From a virus, in the IMG/VR virus record IMGVR_UViG_3300025426_000141, positions 1-20,718 of that record: a stretch of 20,718 bases of DNA; one strand, given 5' to 3'. Shown here one piece after another: positions 13,286 to 18,914 of the stretch. Position numbers and translations under genes: made by a program. How positions within the stretch are numbered: position 1 is the stretch's first letter; each line of letters starts with the position of its first letter. The notes beneath the pieces are model-generated. The model worked only from the letters and a program-made list of their open reading frames with translations. It made no database searches and was not told where the DNA came from.

Positions 13286-13543
13286 ATGAGCCGAGTTTAT
13301 GGATCTGAAGAAAAAGCCAAGCTTATCAGCGTTATCGATCAAGGATCGCAGGTATTGCAAGAAGTAGACGACCTCAAGGGCGGGCTACGTGACACCATCA
13401 AAGCTGTCGCAGAAGAACTAGATATCAAGCCAAGCCTGCTTACTAAAGCAGTCAATATCGCACACAAGCGCAATTGGTCCAAGGCTAGCGAAGAGTACGA
13501 TGAACTTGAGACTATCTTAGTCACTACAGGTAGAGACGTTTGA
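13286..13543 (+). CDS. dsbA: DsbA-like double-stranded DNA-binding protein
   Basis: An 85-aa protein, MSRVYGSEEKAKLISVIDQG and on. After a charged N-terminal helix comes DLKGGLRDTIKAVAEELDIK, then PSLLTKAVNIAHKRNW and an acidic end (EEYDELETIL). This small helical layout, with a helix-turn-helix-like centre, matches what I recall of DsbA proteins in T4-like phages. T4 DsbA binds double-stranded DNA near late promoters and helps late transcription (known for T4; inferred here). The name is not the bacterial disulfide enzyme; there are no cysteines. A strong Shine-Dalgarno sequence (AAGGAG) lies 6 nt before the ATG, behind its own sigma70-type promoter. Its stop overlaps the TTG start of the next gene. 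The assignment rests on remembered similarity and size. Confidence 0.55.
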   Translation: MSRVYGSEEKAKLISVIDQGSQVLQEVDDLKGGLRDTIKAVAEELDIKPSLLTKAVNIAHKRNWSKASEEYDELETILVTTGRDV

Positions 13544-13824
13544 TAACAAAGATAAAAAACTTTTGGATTAATAGCTATAAGTCAGATAAAATAGCATTTT
13601 ACATAGAAATGTTTAGTGCTATTTTTACTATAGCAGGATCGTTAACATTAGCACTGCACGCTAGGCATCCAGATATGACCATAGTTTATCCTATGTTTTT
13701 CTTGGGTAGCATTAGCCAAGTAATGGCAGCGTACCGACGAGGAGCAGCTTGGGTAATGGTATTAACTATGTATTTCAGCTGCTCTAATATATTTGGATTT
13801 TGTATCGCTAACGGCTGGATCTAA
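13540..13824 (+). CDS. three-helix membrane protein (TTG start)
   Basis: A 94-aa protein. The likely start is the TTG at 13540, which overlaps the upstream TGA (TTGA). The next in-frame ATG (about 13609) would remove the basic head and half of the first helix. After a basic N-terminus (ITKIKNFWINSYKSDK), three hydrophobic segments lie near residues 20-41, 46-64 and 69-92, joined by short loops with RHPDM and YRRGAA. The positive residues suggest a cytoplasmic N-terminus. The YPMFFLGSISQ...AAYRRGAAWVM pattern is one I recall in unnamed membrane proteins of T4-like marine phages. It could be holin-like, a host-membrane modifier or a superinfection factor; nothing distinguishes these. Confidence 0.72.
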   Translation: MITKIKNFWINSYKSDKIAFYIEMFSAIFTIAGSLTLALHARHPDMTIVYPMFFLGSISQVMAAYRRGAAWVMVLTMYFSCSNIFGFCIANGWI

Positions 13825-13846
13825 AATAAGTAAATTTATAAGGCAG

Positions 13847-13898
13847 GCGAGGCCACAATCCGCATTAGGGTATTTTGCGAGCCACAAGTCGCAATAGG
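13847..13898 (+). repeat. imperfect direct repeat in the DNA polymerase leader
   Basis: The 13847-13869 segment (GCGAGGCCACAA then TCCGCATTAGG) recurs at 13877-13898 (GCGAGCCACAA then GTCGCAATAGG), about 30 nt apart. About 19 of 23 aligned columns are the same. The second copy runs straight into the polymerase Shine-Dalgarno sequence. Confidence 0.8.
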
Positions 13899-13900
13899 AG
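13875..13900 (+). promoter_or_regulatory. putative gp43 translational operator hairpin plus SD
   Basis: TTGCGA (13875-13880) pairs perfectly with TCGCAA (13889-13894) around the 8-nt loop GCCACAAG. The Shine-Dalgarno core GGAG (13897-13900) follows directly, 7 nt before the ATG. T4 gp43 represses its own translation by binding a hairpin with an 8-nt loop next to its ribosome-binding site (established for T4). The likeness here is in position and shape, not in loop sequence. Confidence 0.6.
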
Positions 13901-13907
13901 AAAATAA

Positions 13908-16577
13908 ATGAGTTATGTAGATGCATTGTACGATCGCGACAACGATCTAGTCAAAGTAGTTGAGCGTGTTAACGGTAAACGTCAATTTAGAGAATATCCT
14001 GCAAAGTATGTTATCTATTATCCAGATCCAAGAGGCAAGCACGATAGCGTCTATGGAGAAAAACTCAGTAAAATCGTTGCCAAGAACCAAAAAGATTTCC
14101 ATAAAGAACTTAAGATACATAGTGGAAAAAGGCTGTATGAAAGTGATATCAATCCAGCATTCCGCTGTTTAGAAGAAAACTATCTCAATCTAGATGCACC
14201 AAAGCTAAACATTGCTTTCTTCGATATTGAGACTGACTTTGATCCAGAACGGGGATTTGCTGATCCTAGCGACCCGTTTATGGGCATTACTGCTATCAGT
14301 ATACATCTCAAATGGCTGAATAGGCTAGTAACACTTGCTGTACCTCCAAAGAAACTCAAACTCGAAGATGCTAAGAAGCAATGCGAGGAGTTTAATGACT
14401 GTTTCCTCTTTGAAGACGAAGCAGATATGCTAGAAACTTTCTTAGATCTGATCGAAGATGCTGATATATTAACAGGCTGGAACAGCGAAGGTTACGATAT
14501 TCCTTATACTGTTAATAGAGTAGCTAGAGTATTAAGCAAAGATGATACAAGACGCTTCTGTCTTTGGAATCAATTCCCCAAGAAACGCGAGTTTGAGAAG
14601 TATGGGCGCCAATTGATCACTTATGATCTAGTTGGTAGAGTACATCTTGATAGTTTGGAGCTCTATCGCAAGTATACCTACGAAGAGCGACACACTTATC
14701 GGCTCGATGCTATCGGTGAAATGGAGATTGGTGAGAAGAAAACAGTCTATGAAGGTACTCTTGACAGTTTGTATAATAATGATTTCCGTAAGTTTATCGA
14801 ATATAACAGGCAAGATACTGCACTATTAAACAAATTAGATGATAAACTAAAATTTATCGACCTTAGTAATGAGCTCGCACACGCAAACACAGTGCTACTA
14901 CAGACTACTATGGGTGCTGTTGCTGTTACCGAACAGGCAATCATCAATGAAGCACACCGCAGAGGACTAGTTGTTCCAAATAGACCCAAACGTAACGAAG
15001 ATGAAAGCACACAAGCAGCAGGTGCATACGTAGCTTATCCAAAAAAAGGATTGCACGATTGGATCGGTTCTATGGATTTGAACAGTCTATATCCAAGTGC
15101 TATTAGAGCACTGAATATGGCACCAGAAACTATCGTTGGACAGTTATGTCCAATAATGACTGACGAGTACATTGAACGCCAAATGACAGTTCATAAGAAG
15201 AGTTTTGCTGCTGCTTGGGAAGGTATGTTTGGCAGTTTAGAATATGAAGCTGTAATAAACCGAGACAAGGCTGTAGATCTAACAGTTGATTGGGAAAATG
15301 GCGAAAGCGTAGTTATGAGTGCTGCTGAGATCTATAAAATGGTTTATGATAGCAACCAACCCTGGATGTTAAGCGCAAACGGTACTATCTTTACTTATGA
15401 ATTTGAAGGTGTTATCCCCGGATTGCTCAAGAGATGGTACGCAGAGCGCAAAGAACTACAGGCCAAACTAAAGGTTGCTAAGGATGCAGGCAACCACATA
15501 GAGGAAGAGTTCTGGGATAAGCGCCAGTTAGTCAAGAAAATTAACCTAAATAGCTTGTACGGAGCTATCCTAAACCCAGGTTGCCGCTTCTTTGATAAGC
15601 GCATTGGGCAAAGTACTACGCTAACAGGTCGTGCTATCGCTCGACATATGGCTGGTAAGACGAACGAGATCATAACAGGTGACTTCGACCACATTGGTAA
15701 GAGCATTATCTACGGTGATACTGACTCAGTTTACTTCAGTGCTTACAATGTTTTGAAGAAAGACATCGAAAAAGGACTTATACCCTGGAACAAAGACAGT
15801 GTGATCCAGCTCTATGATCAGATAGCTGACGAAGTCAACGGAACTTTTCCTAAGTTTATGCTAGATGCGTTCCATTGTCCCAAGAGCAGAGGTGATGTTA
15901 TCAAGGCTGGACGCGAAATTGTGGCTATCAAAGGATTGTTTATCACTAAGAAGCGATATGCGGTGCTTTATTATGATAAAGACTCCAAAAGGTATGACAC
16001 AGAAGACAAACCAGGTAAGATCAAGGCTATGGGGTTGGACCTAAAACGATCAGATACTCCAGAATTCATCCAAAACTTCCTCAGTACTATCCTAGAAAAG
16101 GTGCTCACCGGGCATGGAGAAGAAGAAGTGCTGGAAATGATAACTGATTTCCGTACCGAATTCAAAAATAGACCAGGTTGGGAAAAAGGATCACCTAAGA
16201 GAGCCAACAATATCACTGAATATATGCGCAAGGAAGCCAAAGCCGGCAAAGCTAATATGCCAGGACACGTCCGGGCCAGCATTAATTGGAATACGCTCAA
16301 GCGTATGTATGGTGATAACTATGCGCAGTCTGTTAGCGATGGTGCAAAAGTCATCGTGTGCAAGCTTAGGAACAATCCCATGGGCTTCACTAGTGTAGCG
16401 TATCCAGTTGATGAGCTGCGATTGCCGCAATGGTTCAAAGATCTACCATTTGACGATGCAGAGATGGAATCTACCATCATCGACGCCAAACTAGACAACC
16501 TGATAGGTGTTCTAGAATGGGATATCATCAGTACTGAACAAACTAATACCTTTAACAAATTATTTACATTTGAATAA
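13908..16577 (+). CDS. 43: family B DNA polymerase with 3'-5' exonuclease (T4 gp43-like)
   Basis: A complete 889-aa replicative DNA polymerase, close to the ~900 aa of T4 and RB69 gp43. It copies the phage genome and proofreads. The exonuclease motifs are present: Exo I FFDIETD (D106, E108), Exo II TGWNSEGYDIPY and Exo III YNRQDTA. The polymerase motifs follow in order: motif A MDLNSLYPS (D390), motif B KKINLNSLYG (N546 to G552) and motif C YGDTDS (Y602; D604, D606). All expected metal-binding aspartates are visible, so it should be active for both functions. Unlike some marine phage polymerases, it is not split and contains no intein. ATG at 13908 with GGAG 7 nt upstream, behind a hairpin repeat that may serve for autoregulation. 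The sliding clamp gene follows. Confidence 0.97.
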   Translation: MSYVDALYDRDNDLVKVVERVNGKRQFREYPAKYVIYYPDPRGKHDSVYGEKLSKIVAKNQKDFHKELKIHSGKRLYESDINPAFRCLEENYLNLDAPKLNIAFFDIETDFDPERGFADPSDPFMGITAISIHLKWLNRLVTLAVPPKKLKLEDAKKQCEEFNDCFLFEDEADMLETFLDLIEDADILTGWNSEGYDIPYTVNRVARVLSKDDTRRFCLWNQFPKKREFEKYGRQLITYDLVGRVHLDSLELYRKYTYEERHTYRLDAIGEMEIGEKKTVYEGTLDSLYNNDFRKFIEYNRQDTALLNKLDDKLKFIDLSNELAHANTVLLQTTMGAVAVTEQAIINEAHRRGLVVPNRPKRNEDESTQAAGAYVAYPKKGLHDWIGSMDLNSLYPSAIRALNMAPETIVGQLCPIMTDEYIERQMTVHKKSFAAAWEGMFGSLEYEAVINRDKAVDLTVDWENGESVVMSAAEIYKMVYDSNQPWMLSANGTIFTYEFEGVIPGLLKRWYAERKELQAKLKVAKDAGNHIEEEFWDKRQLVKKINLNSLYGAILNPGCRFFDKRIGQSTTLTGRAIARHMAGKTNEIITGDFDHIGKSIIYGDTDSVYFSAYNVLKKDIEKGLIPWNKDSVIQLYDQIADEVNGTFPKFMLDAFHCPKSRGDVIKAGREIVAIKGLFITKKRYAVLYYDKDSKRYDTEDKPGKIKAMGLDLKRSDTPEFIQNFLSTILEKVLTGHGEEEVLEMITDFRTEFKNRPGWEKGSPKRANNITEYMRKEAKAGKANMPGHVRASINWNTLKRMYGDNYAQSVSDGAKVIVCKLRNNPMGFTSVAYPVDELRLPQWFKDLPFDDAEMESTIIDAKLDNLIGVLEWDIISTEQTNTFNKLFTFE

Positions 16578-17378: not shown

Positions 17379-18914
17379 ATGAACAAAAATCTCACTGCAA
17401 CACAGAACGATTATGCCGTATTCCTTCCCGCGGTGAGCAGTTTCTATAGCACCTTTATAGGCAAGCAGCGATACGGCAATTATGTTGATCCTGCTCGCTT
17501 ACCTGCTCAGTTTACGCAAGGTGTAGAAGGATTAAACTTTTTCGATCCAGAAAAAGGCTACTTCTACTACAAATGGGGATTGTATTCCGCAGGGCATGCC
17601 GAGATAGACATCACTAAGCAATCTGAAAAAGAAGATATGTTTCGCAAGCGTCCACGGAACGGTGATAGCATCGTTGTCGGCGATAGCGGCGGCTTCCAGA
17701 TCGGTAAAGGCGTATGGGAGGGCGATTGGAAAGATCCTAACTGTCCAAAAGCACAAAAAAAGCGTAGCCAAGTACTGTCTTGGATGGATGACATGATGGA
17801 TTACGGAATGATCTTAGATATTCCAGCATGGGTTGCTCGTAGTCCTGCAGGTATGAAGGCGACGGGGATATCAAGTTATCAAGAAGCAGTCAATGCTACA
17901 TATATCAATAACGATTATTTCATCAATAATCGCAACGGCAACTGTAAATTCCTAAACGTGCTACAGGGCGAGAATCATACAGAAGCCGAAGATTGGTATC
18001 AGCGTATGAAGAAATACTGCGATCCAACCCAATACTCTAATCACTTTAATGGATGGTCGATGGGTGGTCAGAATATGTGTGATGTGCATCTCACGTTGAA
18101 AATGTTAGTTAATATGCGATTTGACGGATTACTAGAAAGCGGTAAACAGGATTGGATGCACTTTCTAGGAACTAGCAAACTAGAATGGGCGTGTTTGTTA
18201 ACAGATATACAACGTGCTGTACGCAAACATCACAATCCTACATTCACTATCAGCTTTGACTGTGCGAGTCCGTTCCTAGCAACGGCTAACGGACAGTTGT
18301 ATATCACGAACGAGATAGAACACTTTAAGAAATGGACCTATCGCATGGTTCCTAGTGTCGACGATAGGAAATATGCATTAGACACACGAAAGTTTAGTGA
18401 TGTGGTTATAAACGACGCTGTCTTTAAAACATTTACAGAATCGCCTATAAGCGACAAGTGTCTAATCAAAGATGTCTGCATCTATAAGCCCGGAGATACA
18501 AACAAGAACGGAAAAGTCGGCAAGACCAGCTGGGATAGTTTTAGCTATGCTATCCAGATGGGCCATAATGTTTGGATGCACATTAATGCTGTGCAAGAAG
18601 CCAATCGCCAGTATGATCAAAAGATAATTCCAAATATGTTGCACTTCGAATCTTATGATAGAGAATATTTCCGAGATGTTGTAGATCGTATATTTGCTAC
18701 GGATGATCGAAATAAGGCAATCGCATTAGTAGAAAACTTTAATAGGTTTTGGTTAAAGATTATTGGTACACGTGGAGCTACTGGTAAGAAGACTATTAAT
18801 AGTTCAACATATGCAAACAAGAATTTTACCTACGAAGATGTAGCAGAATATACGAGAGACGATAGCGGACTGGATAACAAGAAGCTAGAAAAACTAGAGG
18901 AGTCAGTTGAATGA
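17379..18914 (+). CDS. tRNA-guanine transglycosylase-like (DpdA-like) base-exchange enzyme
   Basis: A 511-aa protein with TGT-superfamily active-site motifs in order: VVGDSGGFQ (D102-Q107), GMILDIPAW (D147), WSMGGQ (G229-G230) and FTISFDCASPF (D294). In Zymomonas TGT the equivalents are D102/S103, D156, G229-G230 and the nucleophile D280, so the guanine pocket and both catalytic aspartates appear kept. TGTs swap guanine for a 7-deazaguanine in tRNA; phage and bacterial DpdA do this in DNA. In a phage, DNA modification is the likelier role (inference). The canonical CxCxxC...H zinc site is not evident; only C361-x5-C367 and H396/H401 are nearby. The C-terminus has a charged tail. It starts 7 nt after the clamp gene with no clear Shine-Dalgarno sequence, and its stop overlaps the next gene (ATGA). 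The substrate is unproven. Confidence 0.72.
   Translation: MNKNLTATQNDYAVFLPAVSSFYSTFIGKQRYGNYVDPARLPAQFTQGVEGLNFFDPEKGYFYYKWGLYSAGHAEIDITKQSEKEDMFRKRPRNGDSIVVGDSGGFQIGKGVWEGDWKDPNCPKAQKKRSQVLSWMDDMMDYGMILDIPAWVARSPAGMKATGISSYQEAVNATYINNDYFINNRNGNCKFLNVLQGENHTEAEDWYQRMKKYCDPTQYSNHFNGWSMGGQNMCDVHLTLKMLVNMRFDGLLESGKQDWMHFLGTSKLEWACLLTDIQRAVRKHHNPTFTISFDCASPFLATANGQLYITNEIEHFKKWTYRMVPSVDDRKYALDTRKFSDVVINDAVFKTFTESPISDKCLIKDVCIYKPGDTNKNGKVGKTSWDSFSYAIQMGHNVWMHINAVQEANRQYDQKIIPNMLHFESYDREYFRDVVDRIFATDDRNKAIALVENFNRFWLKIIGTRGATGKKTINSSTYANKNFTYEDVAEYTRDDSGLDNKKLEKLEESVE

Follow-up and report, generated by a model that had tools for sequence, protein, structure and literature searches.

Does the short leader in front of the DNA polymerase gene of an uncultured phage contain an RNA operator through which the polymerase could repress its own synthesis? 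The DNA analysed here (the window, 20,718 nucleotides) is a 20.7-kb virus-record fragment from an uncultured T4-superfamily phage, with tail/head-type genes on its left and the polymerase gene from position 13908. A textbook case of translational control is gp43 of T4 and RB69: when the protein is not occupied with replication, it attaches to a hairpin located upstream of the Shine-Dalgarno (SD) sequence of its mRNA and represses translation (PMC3014915). By analogy with T4/RB69 gp43, the leader at 13840–13907 is probably an autogenous translational operator of the phage polymerase (probability roughly 0.75), and belongs to a conserved, operator-like RNA family spanning a large uncultured clade.

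Two hairpins ahead of a gp43-like polymerase gene

The gene presumed to be both the regulated gene and the source of the repressor (13908–16577, + strand) encodes a gp43-like family B DNA polymerase of 889 aa (Pfam DNA_pol_B, 3.5e-36). RB69 and T4 gp43 are its nearest solved structures in a PDB sequence search (best match RB69 gp43, E about 1e-60), and polymerases of the clade are only about 26–27% identical to T4/RB69 gp43. A leader of 83 nt separates the polymerase ATG at 13908 from the end, at 13824, of a 94-aa ORF (13540–13824, + strand), the relative of which runs into the polymerase start in an operator-less sister (L003). Further upstream, an 85-aa ORF (13286–13543) is weakly similar to the T4 DsbA transcription regulator family. 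Downstream of the polymerase, a 511-aa ORF (17379–18914) had no match in Pfam, PHROG and PDB sequence searches.

The conserved start of the leader (13840–13846, + strand) reads AAGGYNN before hairpin 1 in relatives, where the first A and the final G of AAGG each show conservation of 90% or more (alignments A1 and A2). It is followed on the same strand by hairpin 1 (13847–13863), a spacer (13864–13874) and hairpin 2 (13875–13894), the SD-proximal core. As the initial annotation described, hairpin 2 has a perfect 6-bp stem, TTGCGA[GCCACAAG]TCGCAA (arms 13875–13880 and 13889–13894, 8-nt loop GCCACAAG at 13881–13888), and adjoins the polymerase SD: it runs into TAGGAG, in which the SD sequence AGGAG occupies 13896–13900 (+ strand) immediately 3′ of the hairpin. 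In relatives, the distance from the hairpin end to the start codon is 7–16 nt.

The weaker, imperfect upstream duplicate was likewise correctly recognised. It lies 29 nt earlier and folds in isolation at only −2.9 kcal/mol, versus −7.1 kcal/mol for hairpin 2. We draw hairpin 1 with a bulged A, GCG(A)G[GCCACAAT]CCGC, which preserves the loop register of the family; the form given previously, GCGA[GGCCACAA]T(C)CGC, depicts it equally well. Hairpin 1 is degenerate in the window, where its best form (−2.9 kcal/mol) has a closing G-U pair within the loop and its segment can adopt a more stable fold. The 161-nt leader region is ordinary in stability (z = −0.5) and the word GCCACAA is no rarer in the window than chance; the window by itself would therefore be weak evidence, and the decisive evidence comes from relatives. 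A cross-pairing of 5′ arms in the long fold of the window was rejected as a conserved feature, judged from stem sequences, because the stems differ in most relatives.

Covariation and a constant loop in relatives

Leaders of 80 polymerase homologues (73–98% identical to that of the window) contain two hairpins in which the stems vary and the loop is constant, for example GATCA[GCCATAAA]TGATC and TGTAG[GCCACAAA]CTACA. When hairpins with loops of 3 to 13 nt were counted blind to the loop letters in 52 distinct leaders, 8-nt loops were far in excess (67 seen vs 7.8 in shuffles), followed by 9-nt loops (20 vs 8.4). Both hairpins share the loop consensus GCCAYAAR, with GCCATAAG, GCCACAAG, GCCATAAA and GCCACAAA dominant. 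Hence, the expectation of a conserved loop was borne out in relatives, with the consensus being GCCAYAAR rather than the CCACAA originally singled out. Free stem variation around a kept loop is, on the sequence evidence, a mark of loop recognition.

Covariation was scored for both stems in alignment A1, comprising 39 distinct leaders, and was strongly positive, as the initial annotation had anticipated for a genuine element. Paired cells reached 90.5% compared with 66.4% in shuffles (87.7% for hairpin 1, 93.3% for hairpin 2), double-changed cells numbered 117 versus 42.3±6.8, and the covariation score was 0.748 versus 0.321, falling to ≤0.22 when one side was slid by 1–3 columns. All five helix pairs of hairpin 1 and four of five in hairpin 2 covary. 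RNAalifold, unaided, recovered the same two helices, with compensatory changes in 9/9 predicted pairs. The duplication itself is maintained across many relatives: the distance from loop start to loop start is 29 or 30 nt in 36/39 leaders, across spacers of near-fixed length and free sequence (only 41% mean identity).

Inverted repeats of 5–6 bp resemble DNA palindromes, and could in principle be read at the DNA level by a transcription factor or replication protein. The alignment renders this extremely improbable. One hairpin 2 pair (51–67) is G-U in 9/39 leaders, which pairs in + strand RNA and is a mismatch on the other strand; this places the element in + strand RNA. Moreover, the loop is asymmetric and conserved on one strand, and placement is fixed between the gene start and the SD.

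A further alternative is that protein-free hairpins tune translation or mRNA stability, via SD access, temperature, 5′-end protection or RNase processing. Consistent with this, hairpin 2 lies directly against the SD, and its 3′ strand runs on into the SD in the leaders of distant relatives (CCG[GCCATAAA]CGGAG). In addition, a TAAATA box lies upstream of the polymerase leader in 43/96 relatives (7.9 expected) and ends 72–80 nt before the start codon in 34/43 tandem leaders, a position that suggests that the hairpins are near the 5′ end of the transcript. Nonetheless, structure alone seems a quite unlikely explanation, given that the same 8-letter loop occurs in both hairpins despite unrelated stems and that the 29-nt spacing is kept. 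TAAATA boxes resembling T4-type late promoters also occur shortly before other genes of the window (1226, 1504, 4135, 5434, 9643, 12554 and 16602).

The element is specific to the polymerase gene

We searched IMG/VR for three exact hairpin patterns, GATCAGCYAYAARTGATC, GCGAGCCAYAARTCGC and GTTGGCCAYAARCAAC, blind to the position of polymerase genes. Among the matches listed, 118/120, 105/119 and 112/120, respectively, precede the gene for a gp43-like polymerase. Taken together, 335 of 359 copies among these matches precede such a gene, mostly within 120 nt of its start; the other 24, most of them lone hits inside unrelated coding regions, include at least two leaders cut by the end of a stretch (L285 and L519). 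By comparison, the first pattern had 29 matches in GTDB genomes (about 60 expected at random), none of which was before a gp43-like polymerase (0/29).

Results were similar with R2, a covariance model of the single hairpin. In the window it matched hairpin 2 only, a score that is partly by construction since the training set included the window hairpins. Across 29 long relatives (42–608 kb), strong hits and all close pairs were at the polymerase leader, with a few weak single hits elsewhere. A relocated operator was also sought in operator-less genomes, and none was found in G003, G009, G014, G018, G022 and G023. These computations show a conserved RNA structure that is specific to the polymerase gene.

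Such specificity bears on whether the hairpins bind another trans-acting factor controlling polymerase translation, such as a different phage-encoded protein that binds RNA, a protein of the host or a small RNA. The loop is unlike T4 gp43 targets, and the leader is conserved whatever its ligand, both of which favor another factor. We nonetheless consider this unlikely, as a regulator with a general role should have sites at more than one gene, whereas strong hits were at the polymerase only. In addition, RegA, which was listed in all T4 relatives examined to 2010 (PMC2993671), was not found (PF01818) in 14 long records of the clade (L056, L053, L441 and others), which are possibly incomplete, while T4 and P-SSM3 were positive.

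The leader had no Rfam 15 match near the gathering score, and eight relatives had none up to E = 1. No similar leader was found in a named-phage collection, and no named phage was found with the element; the hairpin model had no hit at the polymerase of the named relatives Phosso, Atu_ph07, 121Q, Vibrio 2.275, Ettore, Munch and GAP32. A literature search of incomplete coverage found no description of it.

Relation to gp43 operators, alternative leaders and losses

From T4 and RB69 we infer that the polymerase is the ligand and repression the effect. The mRNA would fold into two hairpins presenting the common loop GCCAYAAR, and free polymerase, when not replicating, would bind the SD-proximal hairpin as in T4/RB69, covering the SD and so blocking ribosome loading. 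The upstream copy, ~29 nt away, might conceivably act as a second site conferring higher affinity or steeper repression.

In the leaders read here, the T4 hairpin is AGCCU[AAUAACUC]GGGCU and that of RB69 is AGAC[AAUAACUC]GUCU. Like the present element, both are short hairpins with an 8-nt loop upstream of the SD of a gp43 family gene and are exclusive to the polymerase, and in RB69 the stem and the SD adjoin in just the way seen for hairpin 2. In contrast, their loop carries UAAC, the recognised core (PMC3014915), and has only the A at loop position 4 in common with GCCAYAAR; T4 also possesses RegA. The present leaders differ further in that they usually contain two such hairpins at a spacing of 29–30 nt, or one accompanied by a hairpin of a different type. 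Because the loop differs from AAUAACUC, homology with the T4 operator is no more than possible. Natural variation in gp43 loops does occur, as the RB49 gp43 leader hairpin has UAAA in its loop (PMC3014915), recalling the YAAR end of the present loop, although that review describes a single hairpin for RB49. The T4 gene 32 operator is also an autogenous control of a replication protein by leader RNA structure (PMC3014915), as would be the case here by analogy, but consists of a pseudoknot and an A+U-rich stretch instead of tandem hairpins with a conserved loop. Specific gp43 operators have been described for few coliphages only, and not every T4-related gp43 regulates itself (PMC3014915).

As a separate observation, Serratia phage Muldoon (L719) carries GTCC[GAGCAACCT]GGAC about 19–37 nt upstream of gp43. 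We take its loop to be the major variant from T4 gp43 SELEX, AGCAACCU, with a CAAC core. A natural phage with that variant loop was asked for in PMC3014915.

To assess breadth, we added 159 further loci, with polymerases down to about 62% identical to that of the window. The SD-proximal hairpin is the conserved core across the whole range (~62–100% identity), while the upstream position holds either a duplicate (the tandem form) or a hairpin of another type, variable in sequence, with CATGTAGANGG and then hairpin 2 after it (alignment A4; L347–L425, L433–L505 and L015–L021). The stem of this different hairpin varies in step by inspection, without a control score (GTTG/CAAC, GTTC/GAAC, GTCC/GGAC, GCCC/GGGC and GCTC/GAGC). 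In total, 66 of 245 loci are tandem, 82 show the alternative form or a hairpin 1 that went unrecognised, in 13 an inserted ORF sits between operator and polymerase, and 84 lack an operator, although four counted among the last (L370, L371, L435 and L437) carry a variant loop. Leaders with an operator are mostly 47–90 nt long, whereas in about two thirds of operator-less loci the polymerase start falls from −4 to +12 relative to the stop codon of the upstream gene. Several lineages have lost the leader, mostly with a start overlapping the preceding gene; on a FastTree phylogeny of 175 polymerases, operator presence versus absence needs 10 changes, or about eight once the four variant-loop loci are corrected.

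Doubling is not essential, since many relatives keep a single such hairpin. Within the small clade of the window, the upstream copy looks to be in decay, because the sister L003 (polymerase 95% identical) has no leader or operator and hairpin 1 of the window is weak. The doubled operator of the initial annotation is therefore upheld as a tandem form in many relatives, with the copy in the window itself decayed and other relatives having a different hairpin or no leader. The broader proposal of a distinct T4 gp43-like operator holds with respect to the tandem hairpins, the gp43-like gene, the 8-nt loop, the RB69-like site and the un-T4-like loop, and repression by the polymerase would follow by analogy. 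If so, the type of control, gp43 autorepression, is known, and the loop sequence and doubling would be new.

These variable forms are also compatible with a more tentative reading, that of a separate, possibly convergent polymerase-autoregulation RNA. This would be a cooperative two-site operator of fixed spacing, able to bind a pair of polymerases, or a single one together with a second factor, with an exchangeable upstream module (the duplicate or the CATGTAG hairpin), and replaceable by translational coupling to the preceding gene. For the autogenous, T4/RB69-like operator that we prefer, we counted the covariation, the + strand G-U pairs, the kept loop, the fixed distance, the polymerase-only location, the kinship with RB69/T4, the failure to find RegA in the 14 long records and the operator-less starts that mostly overlap the upstream gene. 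Counted against it were the un-T4-like loop, the gp43 relatives that do not autoregulate (PMC3014915), the weak hairpin 1 of the window (−2.9 kcal/mol), the operator-less L003, the single-hairpin relatives and a null test for polymerase changes. In that test, conserved sites were changed no more often in polymerases of operator-less lineages than in controls (9 columns in each), and repeated changes as a footprint of RNA binding were rejected as a candidate, with K629 changed in 3/8 lineages (not significant).

The clade offers hundreds of natural variants, often with two loops per message, an exchangeable duplicate and repeated losses, and so constitutes a natural data set in which to study how a replicative polymerase may find the mRNA that encodes it, and how lineages acquire, double or discard this kind of control. 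The ORFs inserted between operator and polymerase encode ~200 aa (L063:1368–1988, and in L353, L366–L369, L372, L373, L375, L416 and L422) and mostly overlap or touch the polymerase start. The type in L353 and L416 is 2OG-Fe(II) oxygenase-like, slightly below the Pfam cutoff, and that in L063 matches a PHROG labelled ferrochelatase.
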